Shown: positions 3,001 through 48,785 of the stretch, piece after piece | Layout: every line of letters starts with the position of its first letter | Position numbering within the stretch: position 1 is the first letter of the stretch | Assembly (NCBI GenBank): GCA_037576195.1 | Contig: CM075104.1 | Span: 9,058,775 to 9,122,774 of the forward strand | Length of the DNA stretch: 64,000 bases | From: Phytoseiulus persimilis | Taxonomy: Eukaryota > Arthropoda > Arachnida > Mesostigmata > Phytoseiidae | Reading direction: 5' to 3' | Notes under the pieces: generated by a model | Seen by the model: only the letters and a program-made list of their open reading frames with translations | Told to the model about the DNA's origin: nothing | Databases searched by the model: none | Made by a program: the position numbers and the translations under genes

Positions 3001-3880
3001 ATAATTCTCCGGCGTTTCCACTGAGAAGCGTTGTCACACGGCACTGGACGGCGTGACGCATGCGACCGCTTGGACGCTGCTTATTGAAGCTCTGCATGAA
3101 TCCCTGATGGACTGCAAACATCAGCGGCAAGTTCATCAGTGACAAGCCGACTAGACTCTAGATCTTAACAACGAGAAACGTGGCGTCTGTCGTTTCGTCG
3201 ACTACGTTGTTAGTCAAGTGCTTTTGTGAACGGCTATCTGCGTTGCGAACATCGCCAGCAACGATACGTAAACACGTTGCCCGGCTTCGAACCTTATGCT
3301 AGCCCGCGCTCGACTTCCACAAGCGATGGTGGGAGAGAATAGGAATTTATTTCCCTCTTAAGATTTCTGGAGCATTCCCGCTTTTATCTTGCCGTATCAT
3401 CGTTTTCCCAGGCTACTTAACTGGAAGCTCGGGTGCCTGCTGAAAAATCATCCCACGCTGGGATGGGTCGCCAAAGCCTTCTCATCCCTGAAATAGAGAT
3501 TGTAGGAACAACGATGGGTGACGCTGTAGCTGCGGAACCTGTCGGAAACATGGGAAGTTCAAGCTCGTCGATCAGATCGAGAGCAGCCGGATGATCACTT
3601 AGTGGAGGTTGCCACGTTTCGAAGGGTGCTGCGCGCTCTCCTTCAAACTTGCCGAATCATTCGGGCTGGCGTAGAATCACGGGAAGCTCCTTCAGGGTGT
3701 GTCAGATAACTCTGATTTCGTTTCTCTCACCGTTAGCGGTGTTTCTTCTGCTGAGCGGTCGCAGACGGGCCGCCCCAGGATGTAGCCTTCACGATTGAGC
3801 AGAAAGCTACGCCGCCACTTGGTATAGATTATTCATGAAAACATTGATCGAGCGACAGGTGCGATGAGGCGCTGTGAGAC
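1..3880. other. Gene-poor stretch, no confident gene
   Basis: No recognisable protein family, RNA gene or repeat array is seen here. Two minus-strand open stretches look somewhat protein-like: 1180-1359, which begins with an ATG (MDITET) directly after an in-frame stop and is acidic, and 1422-1646. Neither has a recognised motif or a phase-checked splice partner, so they are not called as genes. Confidence 0.4.
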
Positions 3881-4401
3881 CAAAAACGGGTGATTTCCGG
3901 ACCCGCATCAGGGACAATGAGATCAGCGGTAGAGTTCATCATATTTTTCCCTTTCATCCTTCTCGATGATTCCTTTTCGCTGTCTGCGACGTCCCGTGAC
4001 CACCTTCGTGAACACTGCTTGAAATCACGAACTTCTCAGAACACGGTTTTTGTTAGCAGTGTCCATTTGTGTGTGGAACGCAATTTTATTCATTTTCGAA
4101 ATTTTCGTGTTTTCTCTGCTACGCGAAGATTCAATATGGGGGACCCGAATGAGGGATCGCTCGATTTCGACCGCCCGTGGAGTGAAATGGACGATTGAGA
4201 AGATAGGGCAAGCCCAGGAAACTTCGATAAAGTTCTGAATAGCAACGATCGTCTCAATTCCCGATCGATCGCAACCTCAAAACCTTCCCAAGAAAAAGAG
4301 AGGGAAGATTATCAAAAGTTCTGACGATGCGTTGGTCTGCCACTGCTAGAGTGCCCGAATTTCGAATTCAAATCTGTCTCCCGACCACACATCCTCATCC
4401 A

Positions 4402-4842
4402 GCTCGCTGGTTCCGTTGGAATTGCACTTCTCGGAAGCGTTGTCGCCAATGTACTGAATCTTGCGCGAGGAGCCCAACCAGAAGAAGAGGGAGTAGAGCA
4501 ACAGAAAGGAAATAACCAAAATGGTGATTTTGTACCTACTTCCATTCCGAATGAGCTTCCGCGGGCAAAACCGAAAGCGCGCGGTTCCTCTGTCTTCACT
4601 GTGGACAAATGAAAGTCGAATAACGGGCTTGGATTCTTTCTCTTTTTTTTCGCAATTTTTCCCTGCGAGCCGAAGAGAAAAAGAAAAACACGGCCGCTGT
4701 AAGTGACAGTGTCGGTCATCTCAAGACTGCTCTTCCAGGGACCATCGGAAATATTCCGGAAAGTGTCTTTTCCGGTGCCGCCCCGTACGTTGAAACCATC
4801 GTGGAAGCAATCGAGCGCGAATCTTGGAAGTATACCCTTTGA
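4402..4842 (+). CDS. Probable last two exons of an unrecognised gene
   Basis: Two plus-strand open segments join cleanly. The first starts after a pyrimidine-rich acceptor ending in tcatccag (exon from 4402) and reads LAGSVGIALLGSVVANVLNL followed by an acidic Gln/Asn-rich stretch, to a donor at AATG|GTGATT (exon end 4521, phase 1). The second starts after gctcttccag (exon from 4741), completes the split Gly codon and reads TIGNIPESVFSG...YVETIVEAIERESWKYTL before a TGA. The first exon holds one hydrophobic helix of about 18 residues. A possible signal-peptide start at 3917 (MRSAVEFIIFFPFILL) lies upstream, but its link is not established. I do not recognise the family. The long ORF on the opposite strand (4312-4878) is read as its antisense shadow. 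Confidence 0.42.
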
Positions 4843-4849
4843 TGCGTTT

Positions 4850-7800
4850 GTCTCATCACTCAAAAGCATCCACAACAAAAGTTCTCTTTATTGACAATGA
4901 TCCGGATGGATTGGCTGGCGAGAACGTGTCTGTATACAGATGTGAAATTCTCGCTTCCGAAGATCCACTGGGATTGCCTGCATACCAGCATACTCCAGCC
5001 CGTGGCTGCATTCCCCGGCTCGCCTGCACTCCGTGTTTCCGGAGTGATATTTTTCGGCTCAACTTGCCAATAATCGGTCTCGAATACGCTTTGACCATGA
5101 TTTGACGAAGACCACTCAGTTGCCGAAGGAGCGTGAGGGGTAGGTTGCGAGGCGCTCTCGTGCGTAATCACAGCACAACTGAATATCGATGGGTTCTTAT
5201 TGCTCTCGCACCTCTCTCCACCAGCGTCAAATATCACGGTTTCATCAGCATGAGGGTGTGGCTGACCGAGAGACCAAACTGCTGGTCAACTTCCAGCACG
5301 ATCAATCGATATTCATACCAAGGAAGAGTGCTCGAACCTCACATCACATGCACCAGCGTATGATGTGGTCAAGGCCTGGCGGGCTCACCGCAAATGGAAA
5401 GAAAAAAAGAACGCGGGAATAAGTTCCCGTCGCTCCCCACGGGACGGCGTGGCTTTAATCCATCGTCGCTTCCTCTTTCGCTTTTATCTATCCCCTGTCC
5501 ACGGATCCCGACAGGCCATGGAAAATTCTGCCGGCGCAGAATCCGGCGAGGTTTCCGTACCTGTGGCGACAGTGGTCGCCCCCAAAAAAGTCGTGGAACT
5601 TCATCTAAACGAGTATCACACGCTTTCCCGTCCGTAGCGGCTCAGGGAACTTTCCCAACGGTGGGACGTTTTACGCCACATCGACTTCTTCTCGTTCGTG
5701 TGCCGTATTCAAGGAACAATGCCACCGCCGCGCGGCAAGCTGGGTGCGTTCCATGCATCGAAACGTAAGCGCCAGTCTCATGAAGCTGGATTCTTACCGC
5801 AGACCGAGTTCGAGTCCAGCTTGGAACGGGCATCATCCGCGACGTCGGGCCGCAAGCTGATCGTCTCTTTTCTCGGGACTTCGAACCGCGATCGGGCTTG
5901 CCTGAGTTCGATGTCGTAATTGATCTCGTGAATGGTTTGCGAAGTTGACTCAGCTTCAGATGCCTCGCTTGAGTACGTGTGCTGTGACAACGGGCTCTTT
6001 ATCCATTGGTAGCTGAGAATTTCAGGCTGAAGTTTAAGAGCAATGTAAGAAAACGAAGAAGAAACAGTTGTTCACTGTTGTGGGGGTCTATTTTTTGTTC
6101 AACTCGCTGTTGTTGCGTTCTCCTTGCCGCCGCCGCCGCCAACGCCGACAGGGCTGCGGCAGCGTTTGGCCGAAGCGGCAGCAGAAGCACAGGCACCGTG
6201 TTCGGACACAGCACAGAAGAAGGAGCGGGAAATTTCAAATGACAGCGCACAGAAGTGGCGATCAGCGATGCGTTAAAACGACACCACAGCCTCCTCACTT
6301 CAGTCAACTTCGGTGAGGCCAACTTCGTCCCCGGCTCCGACTTGTCTTTGACTTCAACTTTCGACTCCGGGTGTTTGCCAAACACAAGCAATGACTTTTC
6401 GAAACAGCCGACGTCTTGCTCGTTTTTCCCACATGAATCGATACTTAAGACGAATCCCACACTGCGGCGAGTGCAATTCAAGTTTCAGAGCAGTTTAACG
6501 TGCACACTTGATACTGGTGTTTCCAGGCTGTTTGCTCAACTCTTCGATCGCGCTCTCGGTGTCCTCATCGCTCTCGGTGTCCTCGCGAAAGTTGTCGTGT
6601 CATGGAACGAACAGATGTTGGCCCTGTAGAGCTTTCCGGGCCATCGACAAGATTTTTAGGTTAGGGTGTCGTTGTGCCGAATCCATGTTTGCCCGAGGCA
6701 GCCAATTCGACACCAAAATAATCTGCTGATCACTGCCGCTTCCGAAATCTCGAATCGCTAAGCCAACCGAGTGCTCTTCGGAGCACTCAGGTCCGAATCG
6801 AATTATGATGCGCTGATTAAAGGCTCCGCTAGTTCGAAGTTTCGTTTAACTCCGTGCCGGAGGGCCTGCTTGATGAGGGCACGTCGATCCGGGTGTTCCC
6901 ATTCCTCGATCAGGGCAGTTTAACAAGCTTTTCTTCCACTGAATTTTGGTTAAGAAGACTCTGCCACAAATCAGGCTTCCGAGCAAGAAGCGTCAGAATC
7001 GCAGAGAAAAATGGATGAGAAAGGGATCAGCTTGGATTAAAGCCCGAGGAGCTCCGGGTTTGTGTTTGCTTGGACGACGTTGACACATCAGTGTCGTGAT
7101 TCAACGGAATAACTTGTTGTTGCTGGTTTTCGCACTCTTGCGGCCGTCATGACAAGAAGATTTCTGTTCTGGGATGAACGATTCGCAAAAAGCTTGTGTG
7201 GCGTTCAAGGTTCAGGAATTTTCACTTGCGTCCATTTCCATGTTGGAATTCCTCGTGCAGAACAGGACCGCGGAGATTGTCGAGTCATATTTCTGTTTCT
7301 CGGCTGAGCATGCTCGAAGCTCGACAAGCGGATATCGACATCGAGAGAAATCTGGGAGATTCGAAGCTGGTGGCTAACGTTTCGGACCCGTTCGGCAGTA
7401 GCGAACATGAGAGAAGCTCGGTCGGAGCCAAGTCAGGAGCCGGAATTGGAAGTCATGATCGACTTCGATTTTGAGCGGAATCGCTGAGTTGACAAAACAT
7501 GCCAATGAGCGGAAGAGTCGAGCAGGAAGGCCGGGTTGCGTACCGACATTCGAACCAGATGATTCGAATCAGCCGGAGAGGCTCATTCAAAGAAAGTTAT
7601 TCGTCGTTGATGGTCACGATTCCGGAGGCTTCCAAAACATCCAGCTCATCTGGACAACTTGCCCGGAGCAATGCAAACAAGCCGAATCAGAGCAGCGGCA
7701 ATTGCTATCTTCATTCAGATCAAGCTTGGATCTCGCTCAGTGAGCGCCCCGTAATCCTCATCATCCCGACCTCACCGTCATCGTGATGAACTGTCACAAT

Positions 7801-23573: not shown

Positions 23574-25931
23574 TCACAGTCTCCAAACCCCTCTACGCAT
23601 TCTATCGAAAATTTCCTCGTCGAAAAGAACGTATCGCTGCTTGGTTTTATCGAGGACGAAGAGCGGGTCTGTCACCAACGTCAGATCAAAAGCTTCCTTG
23701 ACGAGTTTCGTCTTCGACAGTTTGAAAGTGCTAGTTGCTTCGAGCTCCTTAGCAAGCCGAATCATGACTGGGATCGCGTATGCTGGCAGTTCGGCTCTCA
23801 TTCTGATCAATAGTTGCGACAAGTTCTCCTCTTCAGCGTAAACTCGATCGGGATCCAGCAGGGCCATCATTCCGGCCTTGCCCTCCGCGCCCGGAATCGA
23901 GACGCCGTAAACGGCACAGTCATTCATGATCAAGTATTTGTTGACGACGTTCTCGACCTCTGCCGTTGACACGTTCTCACCCTTCCATCGGAAAGTGTCC
24001 CCAGTGCGGTCTTTGAACTGTAGGTAGCCCATTTCGTCGTATTCCAAAATATCTCCGGTTCCAAAGCAGCGGTCGCCCTTCACGACGACGTCGGTGTAGA
24101 TCTTCTTCGAAGACGATGAGTTGTCCGTGTAGCCATCGAATGCGAACTCGGCTCTCTTGTTGTTGATTTTCGCGACCCATTCTCCAGGCTCGTTGGGGCC
24201 GCACAAGACGCACAGCCCGTCTCGTCCCCTGGACGGTTTGCCCGTCTCAGGATCAACCTTTATCAGGAAACGGTTCCAGCTCTTTGTTGCCACAGTTTTG
24301 CTCAGCCGGCAGATCGTGGGTATGCAGCCAACCTTGCCGACGGCCTTGTCCATGTTCATTATGTTTGCGTTGCCTTCAGAGGAGCCGTATAGCTCTTTGA
24401 TGTCGTCTATGTTGAAGCGCTTGGTGAACTGGCGCCATAGCGAAGGCTTCATCCCGTTGCCGTACATCATACGGATCGAGTGAGCCGTGTCCTCGGGCTT
24501 CGCAGGCTGCATGATCAGGTAGCGACAAATTTCGCCAATGTATTGGCTCACGGTGCACTTGTAGCGGATGCAATTATTCCAAAACCTCGATGCGCTGAAC
24601 TTCGGCGCCACGGCCCCAGTGCTTCCGAACAAAACCACCGAGGACATCCCCATGATACCACCAACAGTATGGTAGAAAGGGAGATGGAGGTAAATCACGT
24701 CTTCTGTCTTGACGCGGGCGAGGAACCTCGCTACGGCTCCGCAGAGCAGGAATCTATAGTTTTTCACTATGGCTGCTTTCGGCAAGCCCGTAGTTCCTGA
24801 AAGCAAGAGACAAGGCGGTGAGCTAGCGCATATCGTACAGAGCAAAACCCAGAGTAGCTCGACGGAATCGGGGTGAAAGGATGTGCGAGAACGATCTCAT
24901 CGAGAGGATCTTATTCAATCAGCTGTAACAGCTCGGTGGTTCGGGACTCGGTTGCAAGCCCGTCCACGACCAAAGGCGCTTTGTGCGCGCCTTCACCGGA
25001 ACTTCGAGTTCAAGATGGATATGCATGCGATTCGTGCCACTCGAACCGGGGAAAGCTAGGTGGAGAATGGTGAAGCGGATACTTTACCCGATGTGAAGAC
25101 GTAGAGAAAGCGGTCGGTTACTTTCCCTCGGTAGTTGGGGGCTGTTTCGTCGGCGCTGGCAATCGAGTTTTTGATTTCGGTCGATCCAAGCCTCTCCATA
25201 CCGTCATGGACTCCGAGGCAGAGCATTTGCACGCCCGACTCGGACAGAGAATTCAGCTCGCTACTTATTTCCATCAAGGCAGGAGCGGTCGTAGGAGTGT
25301 AAATCACAGCCGTGGCCTTCACGCTTGAAATCGAATGCACGAGAGGGGACCTCCGGAGATTCGTATTCACTAGAGCGGATGCTACACCAATTTTGGCCAG
25401 GCCGAGATACATGAGAACCATCTCGGGACAGTTCTCCATCACCAGGGTCACATCATCACCGGCTTTAAAGTTCCGTTCTTTGAAAAAGTTTGCCACCCGG
25501 TTCGTATAGAGGTAAGCTTCCTCAAAGGTCCAGGTTCGTTCCCCGTGATAGAACATTGTCTTCTTGGGATGCTTTTTCGTAACTTCGTTAAAGAACATCG
25601 TAGGAGTTTTCTGTCGTAGCTGCGTCATTTTACAAAATACCATCAATTCCACGTATCTCTTGATGGTGATGACATCTCGTGGAAGCGTTCGTACTATCAA
25701 CCATGCTGTCTTCCATCCAAGCAACAGAGAACTCGACACAAGAATCACGAAGCCCGCGTGCCATCCCACGATGCAGGTGACCGCAACAGCGACGAGAACT
25801 GGAAATCGACGCATGAGGCCAACGAAATCGGGAGCCATGTCGACGACGACGGCACGAGGCAGTATGGGAACAATGATTGAACCGGGAGAAAGAGCAGCGC
25901 TTTCTGACAGGGAGCTTACTAAATTCGTCAT
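23574..25931 (-). CDS. Long-chain fatty acid transport protein / acyl-CoA synthetase (copy A)
   Basis: This is an SLC27/FATP-family enzyme, which couples fatty-acid import to ATP-dependent CoA activation, typically at plasma or ER membranes. Exon 1 is 25931-25088 and exon 2 is 24796-23574 (minus); the intron splits the Gly codon of the AMP-binding motif (TSG|TTGLPKAA), and the product is 688 aa. Seen: N-terminal hydrophobic segments (residues about 35-85), the P-loop-like YVFTSGTTGLPKAA at about 278, LYGSSEGNANIMN, and the FATP signature DRTGDTFRWKGENVST. Start chosen at MTNLV because the neighbouring copy begins at the equivalent MTDPV; in-frame ATGs at 25940 and 26015 would lengthen it. All catalytic motifs are intact. 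It is a tandem paralogue of the gene at 29965-32113, with exon 2 identical in length (1223 nt). Confidence 0.95.
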
Positions 25932-26069
25932 TGTTTTCATTATCTCGAGGGCTGAACTTTGTGGCGCGCGTTGAGAAAGATTCTTCCCCTTCCGTGGCGA
26001 GAAGTAGCTAGTCATTGCACGATGAGTTAGCGCTAAGGCGAACAAAGCTCCTTGTTGGAAATGAGATGG

Positions 26070-29964: not shown

Positions 29965-32113
29965 TTAAAGTCTCCAGATGCCTTTGCGTATTCGCTTAGA
30001 AATATCCTCATCGAAAGGGATATACTGCTGCTTTGCCACGTCGAGGACAAAAAGCGGGTCCTTGACTTGATTCAGGTCGAAACCCTCTTTGACTAGTCTC
30101 ATTTTCGGCAGCTTGAACGTGCTGGTAGCTTCGAGTTCCCTTGTCAATCGGATCATGATCGGGATCGCGTAAGCTGGTAGCTCACTTTTCATCTTGGACA
30201 ACAAGTGCGCTAAGTTTTCTTCCTTGGCGTACTCCTTGTCGGGATCGAGTAAGGCCACCATTCCGGCCTTGCCCTCCACTCCTGGCACCGAAACTCCGTA
30301 GACGACACAATCATTCATGATCGAATACTTGTTGATGACGTTCTCTACCTCGGTAGTTGACACGTTTTCACCCTTCCACCGGAACGTGTCTCCGGTGCGG
30401 TCTTTGAAGTGGAGATAGCCGAGATCGTCGTATTCAAGAATATCTCCAGTTCCGAAGAAGAGATCGCCCTTGACGACAACGTCAGAATAGGTTTTCTTCT
30501 TTGAAGATTCTGTGTCGGTGTACCCGTCGAACGCGAGCTCGGGTCTCTTCATGTTAATGGAAGCCACCCACTCACCTGGCTCGTTGGGACCACACAAAAT
30601 ACACAATCCGTCCGGGCCTCTGAGTGGTTTACCAGTTTCCGGATCAACTCTGATGAGGAAGCGATTCCACACCAGAGTTGATATGGTTGTACTAAGACGG
30701 CATATCGTCGGTATGAAACCCATATTTCCAACTGTTTTATCCATATTCATTGTGTTGGCGTTACCTTCAGTCGAGCCATAGAATTCTTTGACGTCGTCTA
30801 TGTGGAAGCGCTTGATGAAGTTCGGCCACAGCGTAGGTCTCATCCCGTTGCCAAACATCATTCGTATAGAGTGCGTTGCTTCCTCCGGACGCGCTGGTTG
30901 CGAGTATAAATAGCGACAGATCTCTCCTATGTACTGGGTGACGGTGCATTGGTATCGAGAGCAATCACTCCAAAACTTCGAGGCACTAAACTTTGGCGCC
31001 ACGGCCACAGTGCTTCCGAACAGAACAACTGGTGACATTGCCATGAGCCCACCAGCCGCGTGATAGAATGGAAGGTAAGAGTAGAGCACATCATCGTGCC
31101 TGACGCCGGCAAGATACTTGACGACAGCTCCACAGAGTATGAATCGGTAATTTTTCACTATGGCTGCTTTCGGCAAGCCCGTCGTTCCTGGAAATGAATC
31201 GTAGAGAGGTTGGAAGCTTTTCACAGAGGGTCTCGGAGGGGCACACCAGACAAAGCTTTCTCGCGCGTAAGTTCATACCTGAGGTGAAAACGTAGAGGAA
31301 GCGGTCGCCCACTTTTCCCCGGAAGCTCGGGGCTGATGCACTCGCTCTTTCAATTGAATCCCTGATTTCGGTAGCATCTAGCTCGTTAGTGCTCTCATGA
31401 GTTCCGTAGCAAAGCATATGAACATCAGCCTTGGTTACGAGCGATTTCAGTTCATCGCCCAGTTCTATCAGAGACGGTGCGGTAGCTGGCGTGAAGATGA
31501 TCGCCTTGGCTTGCACGCTCGAGAACGAATGCAGGAGCGGGGTTTTCCGGAGATTAGTGTTCACCAAAGCCGATACAACACCGATTTTGGCGAGCCCGAG
31601 GAACATCAGAACCATCTCCGGACAATTCTCCATCACGAGCGCTACGTCGTCGCCGGCTTTCAAGTTGCGTTCCCTGAAGAAGTTTGCTATACGGTTTGTA
31701 TAGATATCTGCCTCTTCGAAGGTCCATGTTCGGTCGCCGTAGTGGAACATCGGTTTCTTGGGATGCCTCCTGGCGGACTCAGTGAGGAACCTTGTCGGAG
31801 TCCTCTGTCGAAGCTGCGTGAGTCTCACGAAGACGATCACGAGAAAGAAATTCTTGAAAGCATTCAGATCGCGCGGCAGCGTCCGTATTATTAGCCATAC
31901 GGTCCTCCACCGGAACAGAAGGCAAGCCGACGCGAGGAGCAAGAAACCCGCATGCCACTTGAGGATGCAGATGGCTGCGATGGCGACGACAACGGGGAAT
32001 CGACGCACAAGGTTGCAGATGCCGAGCGCAACTCTGCTGATGACGGCCTGAGACGTCGTGAGCAGTGTTTTGTTGTTGGGATTCTTGTCGGGGAACCTCA
32101 CAGGATCTGTCAT
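29965..32113 (-). CDS. Long-chain fatty acid transport protein / acyl-CoA synthetase (copy B)
   Basis: Second SLC27/FATP-family gene. Exon 1 is 32113-31279 and exon 2 is 31187-29965; the 91-bp intron sits at exactly the same codon as in copy A (TSG|TTGLPKAA), and the product is 685 aa. Seen: N-terminal membrane segment (VVVAIAAICILKWHAGFLLL), WTFEEADIYTNRIANFF, VFTSGTTGLPKAAIVKNYR, FYGSTEGNANTMN, DRTGDTFRWKGENVSTTEVE and a C-terminal FKLPKMRLVKEGFDL. Start taken at MTDPV, with in-frame upstream ATGs as alternatives (the open frame extends to 32194). The two paralogues align along almost their whole length and diverge mainly in the first 40 residues, so this is an old but intact tandem duplication. 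Substrate range cannot be read from sequence. Confidence 0.95.
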
Positions 32114-32194
32114 TGTTCCGGGTTGTCTCGCGTGTTGAACTTTGATACTCATCGAACCTGACATTGACCAGCAGAACGTCAAATCAGAAGTCAC

Positions 32195-36104: not shown

Positions 36105-36598
36105 CAGGGTGGTCATCGTGAGTCGGGAATCTTCTTACTCTCTCTTCTTTTGCTCATGTATCGGTGAAAAATTATCCGATTCCGGACTTTTTTTGCATTC
36201 GATAGCTGGAAGGATGGCGCATCTTCTTCTTCTCGATTTTCGTGAATCGGTGAGAACTGAATCTCGCAAATCGGCTCAAAGATTGCCTTTTTTTTCAACT
36301 TTTCTCAAAAAACTAGTCGACAAACTTTTGAAGTCGACCGATCGAATTCGTAAGTGTCAAGGTCGACGCAGGATAGGATGCTGCTCAAACGCCCAACAAC
36401 TGCAGATTTCTATCTCAGGATATGTGAGGAGGACGGAAGATCGTTTCAGCCTTGACCTCAAGATCGACCTCCTGACAAGATCGCGTCTTCTCCGCATTTT
36501 GGCCCGTAACTCTAAGAACTCTTTGCCATCGGAAAATTTCCCGAATTCAGCAAGAGAAGAGAGAGTAAGAAAATTCTCGACCAACGATGACCACCCCG
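36105..36598. mobile_element. MITE with about 40-bp TIRs and TA duplication
   Basis: The left end CAGGGTGGTCATCGT (36105 on) and the reverse complement of the right end, CGGGGTGGTCATCGT, match over about 40 bp with few mismatches, ending in a shared CTTACTCTCTCTT. TA dinucleotides lie immediately outside both ends (36103-36104 and 36599-36600), as for Tc1/mariner-type insertions. The interior has no transposase. A related single end (AGGGTGGTCAGCGTTAGTCGGGA) occurs at 50664-50686. Confidence 0.75.
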
Positions 36599-36664
36599 TA
36601 CTAGGGAAGATGAGAAATTGATTCCGAGTGCTACGTGGAGGTGTTGAAAAACCACTCCTAAATC

Positions 36665-36720
36665 CCGCAGATAACGAATCTTTTCTTTCGATTTTCCGTA
36701 AAAAAAAAACGCATCACATG
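36665..36720. repeat. Partial copy of the CCGCAGATAACGAA MITE family
   Basis: CCGCAGATAACGAA at 36665-36678, preceded by AAATC, matches the terminus of the MITE at 62879-63049, including the bases outside its core. No matching second end was found nearby, so this is a solo or truncated end. Confidence 0.5.
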
Positions 36721-37248
36721 AGATCGCTGGAATGGGAATTAACGAGTGTTGCATGAAGATGCTACAATACCTACTTCCCGACTAGAGCAACGACGATTGC
36801 CGGTGAACATTGCTCGTAACGGGTAAAGGCAAGCTACACGCTACGTGGAGATTGGATTTGAATGGAAAGGGTTCCCTCAAGAAATCCTGGTCTCTTCATG
36901 CCGACAATACAGTCTCATTGACAGAGCCCGCGGGTGAACTTCGTAAACTGCTGACGATGAGGAGCAAAGTGGTTATCCACGGAGAGCTCACTTCACACTT
37001 CGAGGAGAAAGTGATTCTCACGACACCGATTCGGCAACAACAGCAGCCCAGACACACGAAGGCGAGCCCACTGCTTCGTCAAGAGAAGTATTCAAGTGTT
37101 GCACTCTCCGACGACAGAAGATACCTCGGCAAACAAGAGTGTATGTTTCAACAACAGGCCACAGCTGCCCTCCGTAAAATACACGTCCATATCCATCATC
37201 AGAAGTCAGAGTCAGACCCAATCATGATCGCAATCGAGTTATGGTTGA
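36721..37248. other. Flank of the minisatellite element, unassigned ORF
   Basis: An open plus-strand frame runs from 36810 (TTG, no early ATG) into the repeat element. Its unique part of about 145 codons has no recognised motif and is within chance expectation for this window. Confidence 0.35.
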
Positions 37249-40200
37249 CTAGCCGGCCTTCGGCCGACTACGCTGGCCGACCCGTCCCTTGCTTCGGGAG
37301 TCTACTGCTGACAGACACACATTGCCTTACATGTAGTGTCATGAGACCTTCGGGAGTGGCTACCGATTCTCGACAGGATCCTGACCTGGAATCGAGGCAC
37401 TTTCCTCTTCCTTCACTTGGCCAGCATCATGGTTTCGAGAAGTATGGTCAGATTGGTCCCGGAATCACCCCTCCAGGTTTTGAAAAGCGTGGTTAGACAT
37501 TTCTCGAGATCACCCCTCCAGACTTGGAAAGTGATAGTCAGATTGGTCTCGGGATCACCCCTCCAGACTTGGGAAAGTATGTTCAGATTGGTCCCGGTAT
37601 CACTCCTCCAAACTCGGAAAGTAATGGTCAGATTGGAGACGGAATCACCCCTCCAGGTTTTGGAAAGTATGGTCAGATTCGTCTAGGAAGCACCCCTCCG
37701 GACTCAGAAAAGTATTGTCAGATTGGTCCTGGAATCAAGCCCTTCCCCCCCCCAGAGTAGGAGAGTAATGGCCAGATCGGTCTCGTAATCACCCCTCCAG
37801 AGTTGGAAGCTAATGGCCAGATTGGTCTCGGAATCACCTCTCCAGAGTTGGAAAGTAATGGCAAGATTGGTCTCGGAATCACCCCTCCAGAGTTGGAAAG
37901 TAATGGCCGGATTGGTCTTGGAATCACCCCTCCAGAGTTGGGAAGTAATGGCCAGATTGGTCTCAGAATCACCCCTCCAAAGTTGGAAAGTAATGGCCGG
38001 ATAGGTCCCGGAATCACCCCTCCAGAGCTGGAAAGTAATGGCCAAATTGGTCTCAGAATCACCCCTCCAGAGTTGGAAAGTAATGTCCAGATTGGTCTCG
38101 CAATAAGCCCTCCAGAGTTAGAAACTAAAGGCCAGATTGGTCTCGTATTTACCCCTCCAGAGTTGGAAACTAATGGCCAGATTGGTCTCGGAATCACCCC
38201 TCCAGAGTTGGAAAGTGATGGCCAGATTGGTCTCAGAATCACCCCTCCAGAGTTGGAAAGTGATGGCCAGATTGGTCTCAGAATCACCCCTCCAGAGTTG
38301 GAAAGTGATGGCCAGATTGGTCTCAGAATCACCCCTCCAGAGTTGGAAAGTAATGGCCAGATTGGTCTCGGAATCAACCCTCCAGAGTTGGAAAGTAATG
38401 GCCAGATTGATACCGGAATCATCCCTCCAGAGTTGGAAACTAATGGTCAAATTGGTACCGGAATCACCCCTCCAGAGTTGGAAACTAATGGTCGGATTGG
38501 TCTCGGAATCACCCCTCCAAAGTTGGAAAGTAATGTCCAGATTGGTCTCGCAATCACCCCTCCAGAGTTAGAAACTAAAGGCCAGATTGGTCTCGTATTT
38601 ACCCCTCCAGAGTTGGAAACTAATGGCCAGATTGGTCTTGGAATCACCCCTCCAGAGTTGGAAAGTAATGGCCAGATTGGTCTCGCGATCCCCCCCCCCC
38701 CCCAGAGTTGGAAAGTAATGCTCAGATTGCTCCCGGAATCACCCCTCCAGAGTTTGGAAGTGATGGCTCAGATTGCTCCCGGAATCACCCTCCAGAGTTG
38801 GAAACTAATGGCCAGATTGGTCTCGGAATCACCCCTCCAGAGTTGGAAAGTAATGGCCAGATTGGTCTCGGAATCACCCCTCCAGAGTTGGAAAGTAATG
38901 GCCAGATTGGTCTCGGAATCACCCCTCCAGGGTTGGAAAGTAATGGCCAGATTGGTCTCGGAATCACCCCTCCAGAGTTGGAAAGTAATGGCCGGATTGG
39001 TCTCGGAATCACCCCTCCAGAGTTGGAAAAGTAATGGCCGGATTGGTCTCGGAATCACCCCTCCAGAGTTGGAAAGTAATGCCAGATTGGCCTCGGAATC
39101 ACCCCTCCAGAGTTGGAAAGTAATGGCCAAATTGGTCTCAGAATCACCCCTCCAGAGTTGGAAAGTAATGGCCGGATTGGTCTCGGAATCACCCCTCCAG
39201 AGTTGGAAAGTAATGGCCCGGATAGGTCCCGGAATCACCCCTCCAGAGTTGGAAGTAATGGCAAATTGGTCTCAGAATCACCCCTCCAGAGTTGGAAAGT
39301 AATGTCCAGATTGGTCAGATTGGTCTCGCAATCACCCCTCCAGAGTTAGAAACTAATGGCCAGATTGGTCTCGTAATCACCCCTCCAGAGTTGGAAAAGT
39401 AATGGCCAGATTGGTCTCGGAATCACCCCTCCAGAGTTGGAAAGTGATGGCCAGATTGGTCTCAGAATCACCCCTCCAGAGTTGGAAAGTAATGGCCAGA
39501 TTGGTCTCAGAATCACCCCTCCAGAGTTGGAAAGTGTAATGGCCAGATTGTCTCAGAATCACCCCTCCAGAGTTGGAAAGTAATGGCCAGATTGGTCTCG
39601 GAATCAACCCTCCAGAGTTGGAAAGTAATGGCCAGATTGATACCGGAATCACCCCTCCAGAGTTGGAAACTAATGGTCAAAGATTGGTACCGGAATCACC
39701 CCTCCAGAGTTGGAAACTAATGGTCGGATTGGTCTCGGAATCACCCCTCCAAGTTGGAAAGTAATGTCCAGATTGGTCTCGCAATCAGCCCTCCAGAGTT
39801 GGAAACTAAAGGCCAGATTGGTCTCGATTTACCCCTCCAGAGTTGGAAACTAATGGCCAGATTGGTCTCGGAATCACCCCTCCAGAGTTGGAAAGTAATG
39901 GCCAGATTGGTCTCAGAATCACCCCTCCAGAGTTGGAAAGTGATGGCGAGATTGGTCTCAGAATCACCCCTCCAGAGTTGGAAAGTGATGGCCAGATTGG
40001 TCTCAGAATCACCCCTCCAGAGTTGGAAAGTAATGGCCAGATTGGTCTCGGAATCACCCCTCCAGAGTTGGAAAGTAATGGCCAGATTGATACCGGAATC
40101 ACCCCTCCAGAGTTGGAAAGTAATGGTCAATTGGTCCGGAATCACCCCTCCAGAGTTGGAAAGTAATGGTCCAGATTGGTCTCGGAATCACCCCTCCAGA

Positions 40201-40413
40201 AGTTGGAAAGTAATGTCCAGATTGGGTCTCGAATCACCCCTCCAGAGTTTGGAAACTAATGGCCAGATTGGTCTCGAATCACCCCTCCAGAGTTGGAAAC
40301 TAATGGCCAGATTGGTCTCGGAATCACCCCTCCAGAGTTGGAAGTAATGGCCGTTATTGGTCTCGAATCACCCCTCCAGAGTTGGAATTTTTATGCCAGA
40401 TTTTTATGATAGA
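37249..40413 (+). mobile_element. Minisatellite-bearing element, copy A (3'-truncated)
   Basis: The head starts at CTAGCCGGCC with a CGGCC-TTC-GGCCG hairpin, followed by conserved single-copy sequence to about 37430. Then comes a 45-bp array of about 65 units to 40390. In place of the full tail it ends in gatttttatgataga, directly abutting the head of copy B at 40414. It encodes no protein of its own. The classification is open: palindromic head, internal minisatellite, no obvious TIRs and head-to-tail tandem order recall Helitron/Helentron-type elements, but no replicase or diagnostic terminus is present. Confidence 0.75.
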
Positions 40414-43400
40414 CTAGCCGGCCTTCGGCCGACTACCTGGCCGACCCGTCCCTTGCTTCGGGAGTCTACTGCTGGACACACATTGCCTTACATGAATCAC
40501 CCATGAGACCTTCGGGAGTGGCTACCGATTTCTCGACAGGATCCAGAGTTGACCTAGAATCGAGGCACTTTCCTCTTCCTTCACTCACCCCCAGCACATG
40601 GTTTCGAGAAGTATGGTCAGATTGGTCCCGGAATCACCCCTCCAGAGTTGAAAAGTAATGGCCAGATTGGTTCTCGAATCACCCCTCCAGAGTTGGAAAG
40701 TAATGGTCAGATTGGTCTCGGGATCACCCCTCCAGAGTTGGAAAAGTATGTTCAGATTGGTCCCGGAATCACCCCTCCAGAGTTGGAAAGTAATGGTCAG
40801 ATTGGTCTCGGAATCACCCCTCCAGAGTTGGAAAGTATGGTCAGATTGGTCTCGGAATCACCCCTCCAGAGTTGGAAAAGTATTGCCAGATTGGTCCTGG
40901 AATCAATCCCTTCCCCCTCCAGAGTTGGAGAGTAATGGCCAGATGGTCTCGGAATCACCCCTCCAGAGTTGGAAAGTAATGGCCAGATTGGTCTCGGAAT
41001 CACCCCTCCAGAGTTGGAAAGTAATGGCCAGATTGGTCTCGGAATCACCCCCCTCCAGAGTTGGAAAGTAATGGCCAGATGGTCTCGGAATCACCCCTCC
41101 AGAGTTGGGAAAGTAATGGCCAGATTGGTCTCGGAATCCCCTCCAGAGTTGGAAAGTAATGGCCAGATTGGTCTCAGAATCACCCCTCCAGAGTTGGAAA
41201 GTAATGGCCAGATTGGTCCGGAATCACCCCTCCAGAGTTGGGAAGTAATGGCCAGATTGGTCTCGGAATCACCCCTCCAGAGTTGGAAAGTAATGGCCAG
41301 ATTGGTCCCGGAATCACCCCTCCAGAGTTGGAAAGTAATGGCCAGATTGGTCTCGGAATCACCCCTCCAGAGTTGGAAAGTAATGCCAGATTGGTCTCGG
41401 AATCACCCCTCCAGAGTTGGAAAGTAATGGCCAGATTGGTCTCGGAATCACCCCTCCAGAGTTGGAAAGTAATGGCCAGATTGGTCTCGGAATCACCCCT
41501 CCAGAGTTGGAAAGTGTAATGGCCAGATGGTCTCGGAATCACCCCTCCAGAGTTGGAAAGTAATGGCCAGATTGGTCTCGGAATCACCCCTCCAGAGTTG
41601 GAAAGTAATGGCCAGATTGGTCTCGGAATCACCCCTCCAGAGTTGGAAAGTAATGGCCAGATTGGTCTCGGAATCACCCCTCCAGAGTTGGAAAGTAATG
41701 GCCAGATTGGTCTCGGAATCACCCCTCCAGAGTTGGAAAGTAATGGCCAGATTGGCCTCGGAATCACCCCTCCAGAGTTGGAAAGTAATGGCCAGATTGG
41801 TCTCAGAATCACCCCTCCAGAGTTGGAAAGTAATGGCCAGATTGGTCTCGGAATCACCCCTCCAGAGTTGGAAAGTAATGGCCAGATGGTCCCGGAATCA
41901 CCCCTCCAGAGTTGGAAAGTAATGGCCAGATTGGTCTCGGAATCACCCCTCCAGAGTTGGAAAGTAATGGCCAGATTGGTCTCGGAATCACCCCTCCAGA
42001 GTTGGAAAGTAATGGCCAGATTGGTCTCGGAATCACCCCTCCAGAGTTGGAAACTAATGGCCAGATTGGTCTCGGAATCACCCCTCCAGAGTTGGAAAGT
42101 GATGGCCAGATTGGTCTCAGAATCACCCCTCCAGAGTTGGAAAGTGATGGCCAGATTGGTCTCGGAATCCCCCCTCCAGAGTTGGAAAGTAATGGCCAGA
42201 TTGGTCTCGGAATCACCCCTCCAGAGTTGGAAAGTAATGGCCAGATTGGTCTCGGAATCACCCCTCCAGAGTTGGAAAGTAATGGCAGATTGGTCCGGAA
42301 TCACCCCTCCAGAGTTGGAAACTAATGGTCAATTGGTCCGGAATCACCCCTCCAGAGTTGGAAACTAATGGTCGGATTGGTCTCGGAATCACCCCTCCAG
42401 AGTTGGAAAGTCATGTCCAGATTGGTCTCGGAATCACCCCTCCAGAGTTGGAAAGTAATGGCCAGATTGGTCTCGGAATCACCCCTCCAGAGTTGGAAAC
42501 TAATGGCCAGATTGGTCTTGGAATCACCCCTCCAGAGTTGGAAAGTAATGGCCAGATTGGTCTCGGAATCACCCCTCCAGAGTTGGAAAGTAATGGCCAG
42601 ATTGGTCTCGGAATCACCCCTCCAGAGTTGGAAACTAATGGCCAGATTGGTCTCGGAATCACCCCTCCAGAGTTGGAAAGTAATGGCCAGATTGGTCTCG
42701 GAATCACCCCTCCAGAGTTGGAAAGTAATGGCCAGATTGGTCTCGGAATCACCCCTCCAGAGTTGGAAAGTAATGGCCAGATTGGTCTCGGAATCACCCC
42801 TCCAGAGTTGGAAAGTAATGGCCAGATTGGTCTCGGAATCACCCTCCAGAGTTGGAAAGTAATGGCCAGATTGGTCCGGAATCACCCCTCCAGAGTTGGA
42901 AAGTAATGGTCAGATTGGTACCGGAATCACCCCTCCAGAGTTGGAAAGTAATGGCCGGATTGGTCTCGGAATCACCCCTCCAAAGTTGGAAAGTAATGTC
43001 CAGATTGGTCTCGGAATCACCCCTCCAGAGTTGAAAGTAATGGCCAGATTGGTCTCGGAATCACCCCTCCAGAGTTGGAAACTAATGGCCAGATTGGTCT
43101 CGGAATCACCCCTCCAGAGTTGGAAAGTAATGGCCAGATTGGTCTCGCGAATCCCCCCCAGAGTTGGAAAGTAATGGCCAGATTGGTCCCGGAATCACCC
43201 CTCCAGTTTGGAAAGTAATGGCTCAGATTGGTCCCGGAATCACCCCTCCAGAGTTGGAAAGTAATGGCCAGATTGGTCTCGGAATCACCCCTCCAGAGTT
43301 GGAAAGTAATGGCCAGATTGGTCTCGGAATCACCCCTCCAGAGTTGGAAAGTAATGGCCAGATTGGTCTCGGAATCACCCCTCCAGAGTTGGAAAGTAAT

Positions 43401-45183
43401 GGCCAGATTGGTCTCGGAATCACCCCTCCAGAGTTGGAAAGTAATGGCCAGATTGGTCTCGGAATCACCCCTCCAGAGTTGGAAAGTAATGGCCAGATTG
43501 GTCTCGGAATCACCCCTCCAGAGTTGGAAAGTAATGGCCAGATTGGTCTCGGAATCACCCCTCCAGAGTTGGAAAGTAATGGCCAGATTGGTCTCAGAAT
43601 CACCCCTCCAGAGTTGGAAAGTAATGGCCAGATTGGTCTCGGAATCACCCCTCCAGAGTTGGAAAGTAATGGCCAGATTGGTCCCGGAATCACCCCTCCA
43701 GAGTTGGAAAGTAATGGCCAGATTGGTCTCAGAATCACCCCTCCAGAGTTGGAAAGTAATGCCAGATTGGTCTCGGAATCACCCCTCCAGAGTTGGAAAC
43801 TAATGGCCAGATTGGTCTCGGAATCACCCCTCCAGAGTTGGAAAGTAATGGCCAGATTGGTCTCGGAATCACCCCTCCAGAGTTGGAAAGTAATGGCCAG
43901 ATTGGTCTCGGAATCACCCCTCCAGAGTTGGAAAGTAATGGCCAGATTGGTCTCTCGGAATCACCCCTCCAGAGTTGGAAAGTAATGGCCAGATTGGTCT
44001 CGGAATCACCCCTCCAGAGTTGGAAAGTAATGGCCAGATTGGTCTCGGAATCACCCTCCAGAGTTGGAAAGTAATGGCCAGATTGGTCCGGAATCACCCC
44101 TCCAGAGTTGGAAAGTAATGGTCAGATTGGTACCGGAATCACCCCTCCAGAGTTGGAAACTAATGGCCAGATTGGTCTCGGAATCACCCCTCCAAGTGGA
44201 AAGTAATGTCCAGATTGGTCTCGGAATCACCCCTCCAGAGTTGGAAAGTAATGGCCAGATTGGTCTCGGAATCACCCCTCCAGAGTTGGAAACTAATGGC
44301 CAGATTGGTCTCGGAATCACCCCTCCAGAGTTGGAAAGTAATGGCCAGATTGGTCTCGAATCACCCCTCCAGAGTTGGAAAGTAATGGCCAGATTGGTCT
44401 CGGAATCACCCCTCCAGTTGGAAAGTAATGGCCAGATTGGTCTCAGAATCACCCCTCCAGAGTTGGAAAGTAATGGCCAGATTGGTCTCGGAATCACCCC
44501 TCCAGAGTTGGAAAGTAATGGCCAGATTGATACCGGAATCACCCCTCCAGAGTTGGAAACTAATGGCCAATTGGTCCCGGAATCACCCCTCCAGAGTTGG
44601 AAAGTAATGGTCAGATTGGTCTCGGAATCACCCCTCCAAAGTTGGAAAGTAATGGCCAGATTGGTCTCGCAATCAGCCCTCCAGAGTTAGAAACTAATGG
44701 CCAGATTGGTCTCGTAATCACCCCTCCAGAGTTGGAAAGTAATGGCCAGATTGGTCTCGGAATCACCCCTCCAGAGTTGGGAAGTAATGGCGTTATTGGT
44801 CTCGAAATCACCCCTCCAGGAATTTTTATGATAGATTTTTATGATAGATGTATAGGAGAGGAGGTGGGGAAGGATATCCGATGACGATGGGATGAGTCTG
44901 GCTGGCGTCATAACGGGGCGGTGCACCTTATCGTCAGAATTTGGATGCGGGTGACAGTATGGAGGGGGTCAAAGTTGGGGTAAATCGCGAGGGGGGGGGG
45001 GGAGGAGGGGAGGGGGAGGGGGGAAGGGTAATGGGTGGCCTATGTCCTTCCCGGAATCACCCCCCTACATTATGCAGTTTGTTCCAAGTCGATCCGATCA
45101 ATACCGGAGGAGCCTATTGAGGACAAACAAACAAACAGAAACAAACAAAAAAACAGACCCTGGATTTTTATATATATAGATCA
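40414..45183 (+). mobile_element. Minisatellite-bearing element, copy B (full-length)
   Basis: The head is at 40414-40600. The 45-bp array runs 40600-44815, about 93 units, including long almost identical runs. The tail (44816-45180) contains duplicated ttttatgatagat, a poly-G/GGGGA tract, a GATCCGATCAATACCGG block, ACAA repeats and a terminal tttttatatatatagat. It is followed immediately by the next CTAGCCGG head. Confidence 0.8.
44985..45040 (+). repeat. G-rich tract in the tail of copy B
   Basis: A run of 12 G followed by GGAGGGG, GGGGGA and GGGGGG blocks. Four or more G-runs within 45 bp meet the pattern for G-quadruplex formation on the plus strand. The same feature recurs in copy C (47375-47420, with a 16-G run). 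Confidence 0.8.
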
Positions 45184-47589
45184 CTAGCCGGCCTTCGGCC
45201 GAACTACGCTGGCTGGCCCGTCCCTTGCTTTGGGAGTCTACTGCTGACAGACACACCTTGCCTAACATGCGGTGTCATCGGGACACCTTCGGGGGTGGCC
45301 ACCGATTTCTCGATAGGATTCTGACCTGGGATCGAGGCACTTTTCCTTCTCTTCACTGGTCAGCATTAGGGTTTCGAGAAGTAATGCTCAGATCGGTCCC
45401 GGAATCACCCCTCCAGAGTTGGGAAGTAATGCTCAGATTGGTCTCGGAATCACCCCTCCAGAGTTGGGAAGTAATGCTCAGATTGGTCTCGGAATCACCC
45501 CTCCAGAGTTGAAAAGTAATGCTCAGATTGGTCTCGGAATCACCCCTCCAGAGTTGGAAAGTAATGCTCAGATTGGTCTCGGAATCACCCCTCCAGAGTT
45601 GGGAAGTAATGCTCAGATCGGTCTCGGAATCACTCCTCCAGAGTTGAAAAGTAATGCTCAGATCGGTCTCGGAATCACTCCTCCAGAGTTGGGAAGTAAT
45701 GCTCAGATTGGCCCCGGAATCACCCCTCCAGAGTTGAAAAGTAATGCTCAGATCGGTCTCTCGGAATCACTCCTCCAGAGTTGGGAAGTAATGCTCAGAT
45801 TGGTCTCGGAATCACCCCTCCAGAGTTGAAAAGTAATGCTCAGATCGGTCTCGGAATCACCCCTCCAGAGTTGGGAAGTAATGCTCAGATTGGTCTCGGA
45901 ATCACCCCTCCAGAGTTGGGAAGTAATGCTCAGATTGGTCTCGGAATCACCCCTCCAGAGTTGGGAAGTAATGCTCAGATTGGTCCCGGAATCACCCCTC
46001 CAGAGTTGGAAGTAATGCTCAGATTGGTCTCGGAATCACTCCTCCAGAGTTGGAAAGTAATGCTCAGATCGGTCTCGGAATCACCCCTCCAGAGTTGGAA
46101 AGTAATGCTCAGATTGGTCCCGGAATCACCCCTCCAGAGTTGGGAAGTAATGCTCAGATTGGTCTCGGAATCACCCCTCCAGAGTTGGAAAGTAATGGCC
46201 AGATTGGTCCGGCCATCGGAATCCGCCTCCCCGGGTCCGTACCCGAGTTGGAACCGGGTACCCGAAGTCGGCGGGTAAACCCCTCCAGAGGGAAACCCGG
46301 GTCAGATTGGTCCGGAACCGGGTATCATACCCGGTTCTGCGATCCCCTATTGGAAAGTAATGGCCAGATTGGTCTCGGAATCACCCCTCCAGAGTTGGAA
46401 AGTAATGGCCAGATTGGTCTCGGAATCACCCCTCCAGAGTTGGAAAGTAATGGCCAGATTGGTCTCGGAATCACCCCTCCAGAGTTGGAAAGTAATGGCC
46501 AGATTGATACCGGAATCACCCCTCCAGAGTTGAAAACTAATGGTCAAATTGGCTCGGAATCACCCCTCCAGAGTTGGAAAGTAATGTCCAGATTGGTCTC
46601 AGAATCACCCCTCCCAGAGTTGGAAAGTAATGTCCAGATTGGTCTCGGAATCACCCCTCCAGAGTTGGAAAGTAATGGCCAGATTGGCACCGGAATCACC
46701 CCTCCAGAGTTGGAAAGTAATGGGCCAGATTGGGTCTCGGAATCACCCCTCCAGAGTTGAAACTAATGGTCAAATTGGCACCGGAATCACCCCTCCAGAG
46801 TTGGAAAGTAATGGCCAGATTGATACCGGAAATCACCCCTCCAGAGTTGAAAACTAATGGTCAAATTGGCACCGGAATCACCCCTCCAGAGTTGGAAAGT
46901 AATGGCCAGATTGGTACCGGAATCACCCCTCCAGAGTTGAAAACTAATGGCCAGATTGGTCACCGGAATCACCCCTCCAGAGTTGGAAAGTAATGGCCAG
47001 ATTGGTCCCGGAATCACCCCTCCAGAGTTGGAAAGTAATGGCCAGATTGGTCTCGGAATCACCCTCCAAAGTTGGAAAGTAATGTCCAGATTGGTCTCGC
47101 AATCACCCCTCCAGAGTTGGAAACTAAATGGCCAGATTGGTCTCGGAATCACCCCTCCAGAGTTGGGAAGTAATGGCCTTATTGGTCTCGAAATCACCCC
47201 TCCAGGAATTTTTATGATAGATTTTTATGATAGAGTATAGGAGAGGAGGTGGGGAAGGATATCCGATGACGATGGGATGAGTCTGGCTGGCGTCATAACG
47301 GGGCGGTGCACCTTATCGTCAGAATTGGATGCGGGTGACAGTATGGAGGGGGTCAAAGTTGGGGTAAATCGCGAGGGGGGAAGGAGGGGAGGGGGAGGGG
47401 GGGGGGGGGGGTGGGTGGCCTATGTCCTTCCCGGTGAGTCGCCCTACATTATGCAGTTTGTTCCAAGTCGATCCGATCAATACCGGAGGAGCCTATTGAG
47501 GAGACAACAAACAAACAACAACAAACAAACAAACAAACAAACAACAAAAACAAACAAACAAACAAACAGACCCTGGATTTTTATATATC
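45184..47589 (+). mobile_element. Minisatellite-bearing element, copy C (full-length)
   Basis: The head is at 45184-45370. The array runs 45370-47205, about 40 units; its first part is a distinct subfamily (gggaagtaatgctcag in place of ggaaagtaatggccag). It is interrupted at 46206-46350 by GGGT/ACCC palindromes, then reverts to the ggccag type. The tail at 47205-47589 is collinear with copy B's tail: G-tract, ACAA run and AT-rich end, the last ending tttttatatatca. Confidence 0.8.
46205..46350. repeat. GGGT/ACCC palindrome cluster inside array C
   Basis: Five self-complementary motifs: GGGTccgtACCC (46233-46244), CGGGTACCCG (46255-46264), GGGTaaACCC (46273-46282), ACCCGGGT (46295-46302) and a perfect 9-bp hairpin AACCGGGTA-tca-TACCCGGTT (46316-46336). 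Fragments of the 45-bp unit lie between them. Confidence 0.85.
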
Positions 47590-48785
47590 AGCGTGCTCCT
47601 CACAATTGACGTTATTCTGCTTCTGGATCCTGATCCGCTCTCAGACACTCAGCCGAAATCGCGTATTGATTTTGGTTCACTAACATTTACAAAGGGTCCA
47701 GCCAATTGTCGTGGAACCACATGGAGAGTTTCTGATTGATATGCGTTTATGGCTTCCTTCAGCGCTCAGCATCCCAGGCCAAGATGTGTGTTCCGATTGG
47801 AACCAGCTCTGGGATCGTGTTCAGTTTCCCGGACACCTGTAGTGTCCCGGATATTACCGGCGGGATAATAGTATCCCGCCTGGTGCTTGAGTATACCAGG
47901 ACTGATCACAATAATAACCTGACTAGGGAAAATTATCATAACCTGATGATAATAACGAGCCCCAGTCCCGGTGGAGCGTCCAAGGATTCGGAATGGCCAG
48001 AGCTTTATGAAACGCGACCGCGGTTTCCAAGCTCACAGAGGGAAGAACTCGATGACCGTCGATTCGGAAAAACTGCAGGAACCACCAGAAAAACCCACCG
48101 TTGCAGGTCGGTGAGCCCTAAGCAAACTGGGCTACGAAGTAGCGAACGTAGCTGTGCTAGGATGGCCTTTGTTCGAAACCAGAGAAATCCCGAGGCAACC
48201 TTGGAAATATGGAACGTGTCATATCCCTTATGGACCAGAGATGGCTGGAAGCTCTCCTGAACACGATGGAAATCCCCGCGAAACAGACTGAGCTCTGCAT
48301 CTGAGCTCAATGGCTTCATCAGGTGAACGGCGGTGGCCATATCGAACCTATAATATGAACCCAAGGGTAACCAGCCCATTTACAGCCCTCAACGCACACA
48401 GCCCACATGCTAGAAAAAGAGAGTCAGATGAATGCAGGAGAGAAGCTCAGAAGGCATGACATGCTTCTGAAAGACAGCTCGAAGAGAGGAGGATACTCCT
48501 GGATGCGAGAGCTTACTTCTATGACAACCGAAGAGGAGATTCTCTGCTGGCCCTAGCAAGAGCGCGCATGCTATGAACTAGGAGAATCCCTAAGAACAGG
48601 ACGATAATACATGCTCGAGATGCGATACATACGAACAGTGAAACAATACACAATCTTCGACCGATTCACATCATCGGCTACACCGTCTCCGATGACGCAA
48701 ACTGCAGAGACGACCATCTCCTTAAGGCAAGACGATCTGCAACAGCGACGGGAATGGAAGGCCGATTCGAACGGACTGTGTGCTA
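47590..48785. other. Region after the minisatellite element, with hairpin row
   Basis: No supported gene. Four hairpins occur at 47829-47953. ORFs up to 174 aa (47736-48260) lack motifs. Two overlapping plus frames near 48430-48560 are Arg/Glu-rich but stop-interrupted, possibly a decayed repeat. Confidence 0.4.
47829..47953. repeat. Row of four consecutive hairpins
   Basis: Hairpins seen: CCGGACAC/GTGTCCCGG (47829-47850, one bulge); GGCGGGATA-atag-TATCCCGCC (47859-47880, perfect 9 bp); CCTGGT/ACCAGG (47879-47900); ATTATCAT-aacctg-ATGATAAT (47932-47953, perfect 8 bp). Confidence 0.85.

Follow-up and report, generated by a model that had tools for sequence, protein, structure and literature searches.

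We describe a stack of three Helitron units on the minus strand of a 64,000-nucleotide stretch of the genome of the mite Phytoseiulus persimilis (assembly GCA_037576195.1, contig CM075104.1, positions 9,058,775 to 9,122,774 of the forward strand; hereafter the window, numbered from its first letter). The units, which we call copies A, B and C, each open with a CTAGCCGGCC hairpin, at 37249, 40414 and 45184 (plus-strand starts), and each carries an internal array of 45-bp repeats. This much had been described in a first-pass annotation of the same DNA and is confirmed here. The annotation had also named the hairpin side the head and the opposite side the tail; the direction is the reverse of this, for on the minus strand the element runs from a 5' 'tail' to a 3' 'head', and we keep the two words as labels. 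The parts of the stack are the following.

37248: host A at the left border, equal to the host T after CTAG when the minus strand is read
37249..40413, minus strand: Helitron copy A, short form, whose 5' end is an internal look-alike terminus
37249..37270, minus strand: 3' terminus of copy A, where the hairpin continues into the final CTAG; a closely similar terminus adjoins a RepHel gene
37249..37430, minus strand: 3'-terminal segment ('head') of copy A, with 40 scored genome matches at identities of up to 100%
37440..40387, minus strand: 45-bp array of copy A, ~65 units
40400..40413, minus strand: look-alike 5' terminus of copy A, TCTATCATAAAAAT, fused directly to the CTAG of copy B
40414..45180, minus strand: Helitron copy B, full length
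40609..44819, minus strand: 45-bp array of copy B, ~94 units
44820..45180, minus strand: 5' segment ('tail') of copy B; on the minus strand it begins TCTATATATATAAAAATCC
44822..44849, minus strand: two 13-bp look-alike 5' ends beside the array of copy B (TRF); such sites serve as junctions
45181..45183: spacer TCA, 3 bp, host-like, between copies B and C
45184..47587, minus strand: Helitron copy C, nearly full length, of a subfamily different from that of copy A
45379..47205, minus strand: 45-bp array of copy C, broken at about 46211-46350
47206..47587, minus strand: 5' segment ('tail') of copy C, without the last six bases (TATAGA on the plus strand)
47208..47234, minus strand: two look-alike 5' ends beside the array of copy C (TRF)
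47588: host T at the right border, equal to the host A before the 5' end when the minus strand is read

The boundary between A and B is a short-type junction. The tail is present in B and C (44820-45180 and 47206-47587), where the first-pass annotation had placed it in full, and is absent from A, whose end falls precisely on an internal repeat resembling the true 5' end. The copies had been thought to abut without host spacer; this holds for A and B (40413|40414) and fails for B and C, which are separated by the TCA at 45181-45183. Copy C terminates in ...TTTTTATATA at 47587, without the usual TATAGA, and the next base, 47588, is T.

Two features of the arrays stand apart from these boundaries. 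The interruption in the array of copy C (window 46211-46350) is GC-rich and partly palindromic, with GGGTACCCG and CCGGGTA motifs. The 45-bp unit is divisible by three and open in several frames (window 37440-47205), and the arrays therefore contain long spurious frames of up to 499 amino acids.

Read on the minus strand, the element begins with a 5' TC (TCTATATATATAAAAATCC), continues through the 45-bp array and closes with a GC hairpin that runs into a 3' CTAG. Genome-wide searches were all made in the same 181-Mb genome, and loci numbered with an L were fetched from it. The tail gave 55 matches, and head and tail are both dispersed; they were found neither at this locus alone nor as a satellite of fixed spacing. 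A 28-base pattern of the 3' end had 265 exact matches in the genome, all with CTAG, compared to 0 for the reversed control, which puts the number of units far beyond chance. The TCTATATATATAAAAATCC 5' end was seen in L039, L041, L049, L050 and L057, and also 5' of a RepHel locus. Taken over many copies, the exact termini are TC...CTAG and the insertion is between A and T (A|T). On the plus strand, an A precedes the 3' end in 100 of 100 dispersed copies among the matches listed, of 169; the 3'-end pattern behind these 169 omits copies with G as the next base, and hence the usual stacked copies. A T lies beyond TATAGA in 80 of 100 5' ends among the matches listed, of 106.

Empty sites were sought with eight flank pairs, of which two were informative (38 of 194 candidates scored). 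At L042 the joined flanks match contiguously at 37 other places, and at L046 they do so in the surrounding 72-bp tandem array, in both cases with no target duplication. No listed empty-site match was obtained among the scored candidates for the other six pairs, nor for the flanks of the window stack, where the result carries no weight either way. Family copies also lie inside the 72-bp tandem array at C4:769451-774704, with two near-identical insertions ~7.2 kb apart. The first-pass annotation had found no terminal inverted repeats (TIRs), and this is borne out in the single copy L057, in which no exact inverted repeat of at least 8 bp joins the terminal 150 bases. Because of its TC/CTAG ends, its A|T target, the empty sites without duplication and the lack of inverted repeats, the element is a canonical Helitron, not a Helentron, by the published definitions (PMC4778049, PMC5148889, PMC4067079), with a hairpin position that deviates.

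We next considered the relatives of the element that encode RepHel. PF14214, the Rep domain of Helitrons, is matched 101 times in the genome. At L059, an open frame of 1951 amino acids contains Rep and PIF1 domains, together with the HxH and YxxxY motifs, and the locus finishes in CTGG after a hairpin much like the one described above. The proteins of L059 and L060 share 33% identity where they align, and no endonuclease domain was found in that of L059; L059 is a relative and not the array-bearing element itself. Residues 880-1380 of this protein (L059:188-6040) are up to 60% identical to strongylid nematode proteins, compared to 48-50% for those of the mite Galendromus, which raises the possibility of horizontal transfer between the lineages of mites and nematodes.

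A group closer to the window copies is recognized by a RepHel leader that adjoins the 45-bp array, as at L060, and this locus supplies the Rep part; six of the eight matches to the RepHel leader fall at RepHel loci. The protein of L060 has STPR-type peptide repeats ahead of its Rep domain, and a 72-bp tandem array of ~3.5 kb lies on the 3' side of its RepHel frame (1-3522; 3520-7116; 190 N in the locus). One of these six loci has its Rep match at C3:248366, with an open frame of 1682 amino acids; there, L062 contains a frame that is similar to the C-terminal part of the L059 helicase (score 44 over 24 residues) and then stops. A CTAG end, ATAGCCGGCCGAAGGCCGGCTAG, lies 243 bases past the stop of this helicase-like frame and abuts the TCTATATATAAAAATCC of a neighbouring 3.2-kb unit (C3:242158-245363) that has no Rep match in the PF14214 search. 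At L063, TCTATATATATAAAAATCC, the tail, the look-alikes and the array are found on the 5' side of a RepHel leader, from which they are separated by ~1.1 kb of unread DNA, and the 5' end abuts the CTAG of the next unit. Tail ends also lie 5' of two further RepHel copies, at C4:824396 (intervening DNA read in part) and at C3:24155182 (coordinates only), followed by C and G, not T. A frame after a RepHel copy at L020 (3-1568) appears by eye to be the protease part of a Copia-type retroelement. The first-pass annotation had looked ahead to an autonomous relative sharing the ends of the window copies: RepHel loci do adjoin both ends and the array, though each copy was read only in part. We consider it probable, as one joint claim with the explanation of stacking given below, that the window Helitrons are non-autonomous members of a family whose RepHel-encoding relatives occupy the same genome and have the array beside the gene.

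The stacking is not confined to the window. Exact head-to-tail junctions occur 66 times genome-wide, as 29 full junctions at the true 5' end and 37 short junctions at an internal look-alike. Inverted junctions were absent when searched genome-wide by exact patterns (0 tail to tail, 0 head to head). Among 29 distinct 3'-end contexts in the fetched loci, 15 were host DNA, 8 full junctions, 5 short junctions and 1 a full junction with a 3-bp spacer, while none lay inside an array. The stretches scanned of the single copies L057, L050 and L041 offer 155, 309 and 180 AT sites, respectively, compared to 3, 2 and 2 sites of the TCTAT type. No copy with a short 5' end was seen alone in host DNA in the fetched loci; four contexts classed as 'other' in this search resemble, by eye, mutated repeats or a tail that continues.

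At three loci, L043, L049 and L058, the tail of the old copy resumes directly behind the newcomer at a short junction, which is the arrangement expected of insertion at an internal A|T. In L053, three short junctions precede two resumed tails, and in L048 one short junction is followed, beyond an intervening unit, by two resumed tails; at L052 the region behind the newcomer is cut off by the end of the locus. L039 has one head and two tails. Neighbouring heads in the window are 76-84% alike, and among the 37 heads compared, that of A is 100% and that of C 97.9% identical to copies elsewhere. Neighbouring heads in L043 are 85% alike and belong to different subfamilies.

The best reading of these stacks, to which the same good probability applies, is that new copies insert again and again, in one orientation, at the 5' nick site of the element itself, together with some direct duplication. 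A donor copy would be nicked by RepHel at its 5' A|TC, and resident copies nicked by RepHel at the same A|TC would become landing sites. The CTAG end of an incoming circle would then join the resident TC, and the host A would join the incoming TC, a joining that would give junctions exactly as seen and in one orientation only. In a full junction the newcomer would enter at the host A|TC. In a short junction it would enter at one or other A|TCTAT look-alike, two of which lie inside the element next to the array, and the old tail would resume behind it. Repeated landing could build head-to-tail stacks, which recombination or further rolling-circle steps might trim or multiply. A more specific proposal is that stacking is a homing of the element to its own origin, as opposed to a replication overrun: the CTAG|TC joint of an incoming circle would undergo strand exchange with a nicked A|TC of a resident copy, with resident 5' ends preferred in one orientation and two internal copies of the motif beside the minisatellite acting as extra docking sites; we put this forward tentatively, at somewhat less than an even chance. 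Statements about published work, here and below, refer to the available sections of the papers cited. In a nested pair of Helitrons, transposition from the outer 5' end is described as halting at the first 3' end (PMC5148889), and the two-tail, one-head copies such as L039 fit this idea of an outer 5' start and a stop at the first 3' end.

Several observations weigh against parts of this picture. At the target site, 20 of the 100 listed 5' ends have a base other than T beyond them (G in 7, C in 7 and A in 6). The hairpin runs into CTAG, compared to a position 10-12 nt inside for canonical Helitrons (PMC5148889), and 99 of 500 shuffles of the last 40 bases reach a folding energy as low. Among the RepHel relatives, each of the two ends, like the array, has been linked to RepHel genes, with no one copy read through, and the predicted 3' end of the RepHel copy at C3:38.5 Mb was not in the 401 bases fetched. 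The exact patterns missed a tail-to-tail junction with a trimmed centre in L045, and long palindromes may be lost. One 5' end, in L042, adjoins array sequence, which would fit the past entry of a newcomer into an array. In the window itself, the short junction is present with no resumed old tail behind B, which makes it necessary to suppose that this tail was lost later, and the head of B has no close relative, its best match among the 37 heads compared being 83%. Finally, two adjacent units in L049 are identical over 2506/2506 bases, and two 500-bp units in L053 agree at 499/500. Identical neighbours of this kind fit concatemers or unequal exchange equally well, and they imply that duplication by other routes, or the insertion of very recent copies, also occurs.

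With regard to the tail-to-tail case, the two family members in L045 meet at 1567-1640, and the centre of the palindrome is trimmed.

The alternative that survives best, though we regard it as unlikely, is that the stacks are rolling-circle concatemers of a canonical Helitron, formed when RepHel overran the CTAG terminator or when multimeric circles were inserted whole. The CTAG|TC junction is the published circle junction (PMC4778049), neighbours are identical in L049 and nearly so for two units of L053, and a single orientation was found among the patterns searched, all of which would suit such an origin. Against it, neighbours in the window and in L043 belong to different subfamilies, and a short junction followed by the resumed old tail, as in L043, L049 and L058, is not expected from a concatemer. 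Insertion at the element's own 5' nick site remains the reading that we prefer.

It is very improbable that the element is a Helentron or a HINE element. Microsatellites or tandem repeats occur in some HINE copies from a predatory mite (PMC4067079), and oyster HINEs have central arrays (PMC7492417), which speaks for such a kinship. Helentrons (PMC4067079) are characterized by insertion into T-rich DNA with T flanks, by a RepHel fused to an AP endonuclease and by subterminal inverted repeats, which are 12-15 bp long. The mite element, by contrast, has TC/CTAG ends, an A|T target and no subterminal inverted repeats in the copy tested (L057); L059, which lacks an endonuclease domain, is a relative and not the element itself. 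For the array-bearing group, whose RepHel protein was read in part, the frame in L062 stops soon after the helicase-like C-terminus. Of the first-pass suggestion of a Helentron-type rolling-circle derivative, the rolling-circle part thus stands and the Helentron type gives way to the ends, the target and the lack of subterminal inverted repeats. A higher-order satellite spread by unequal crossing-over without transposition, to which the long 45-bp arrays, the multi-unit stacks and some identical adjacent units might point, is scarcely credible given dispersed copies with fixed ends, the A|T target and the empty sites. Equally far-fetched is a retrotransposon or other TIR-less element inserting in tandem, which would share the lack of TIRs and the AT-rich terminus, but for which the absence of duplication at the two empty sites seen, the fixing of both ends and the RepHel loci adjoining the ends are out of place.

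Much of what we observe has counterparts in print: tandem Helitrons, self-insertion, consecutive CTAG|TC insertion, multiple 5' termini and array-bearing rolling-circle elements are already published. Helraiser and Helibat1 of bats (PMC4778049, PMC5876387) share with the mite element a 5' TC, a 3' CTAG, a hairpin, A|T insertion without duplication, RepHel and the CTAG|TC circle junction. The 19-bp hairpin of Helraiser sits 11 nt inside the 3' end, whereas that of the mite element runs into CTAG, and no internal minisatellite or 5' look-alikes, as present in the mite, are met in the available sections of the Helraiser accounts. Head-to-tail Helitrons are cited as a footprint of rolling-circle replication (PMC5876387). 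In FoHeli of Fusarium (PMC5148889), multiple 5' termini share one 3' terminus, for which self-insertion is the explanation offered, and a tandem case is given. FoHeli is titled non-canonical, while the mite element has the canonical A|T and many stacks, and its landing sites are mapped to the 5' end and the look-alikes in one orientation. Adjacent maize Helitrons that differ from each other (PMC2267711) meet head to tail at an exact CTAG|TC junction, which was interpreted as one insertion after another, and insertion at an AT made of a host A and an element T is one of the two orders offered. The maize case is one pair; the mite has 66 exact junctions, internal look-alike sites and resumed tails.

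Oyster Cg_HINE (PMC7492417) and HINE-Mo of Metaseiulus occidentalis (PMC4067079) are likewise non-autonomous rolling-circle elements with internal tandem repeats, and the host of HINE-Mo is also a predatory mite. Both have Helentron ends and targets, unlike the element described here. In the available sections of PMC7492417, the authors tie no autonomous partner to the oyster elements, whereas the RepHel loci of the mite carry the array beside the gene. A predatory-mite genome paper (PMC6902594) mentions Helitrons a single time in its available sections, and those of a wheat Helitron paper (PMC13286980) hold nothing on stacking. We found no description of this Helitron family, and none of orientation-specific docking at a 5' end and internal look-alikes, in the available sections of the literature searched, which largely excludes subscription journals. 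The points of interest are the array-bearing RepHel partner, through which a minisatellite is linked to Helitrons whose RepHel-encoding loci themselves bear the array, and the docking in one orientation. With its many junctions, its two types of docking site and the marks of its subfamilies, the mite family allows the ideas of a replication footprint and of consecutive insertion to be separated.

A few minor observations concern the window itself. A search of 36500-48200 against Rfam returned two weak microRNA-like matches, far under the thresholds and attributable to chance. The 216-base 3' segment of copy C, plus strand, was considered as a ribozyme or structured RNA and rejected, its fold being ordinary (z 0.08). 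Outside the stack, two adjacent fatty-acid transport protein genes lie on the minus strand at 23574-26045 and 29965-32194 and have the look of a tandem duplicate. The closest match to the fatty-acid transport gene of the window is in the predatory mite Galendromus occidentalis, at 73-74%.

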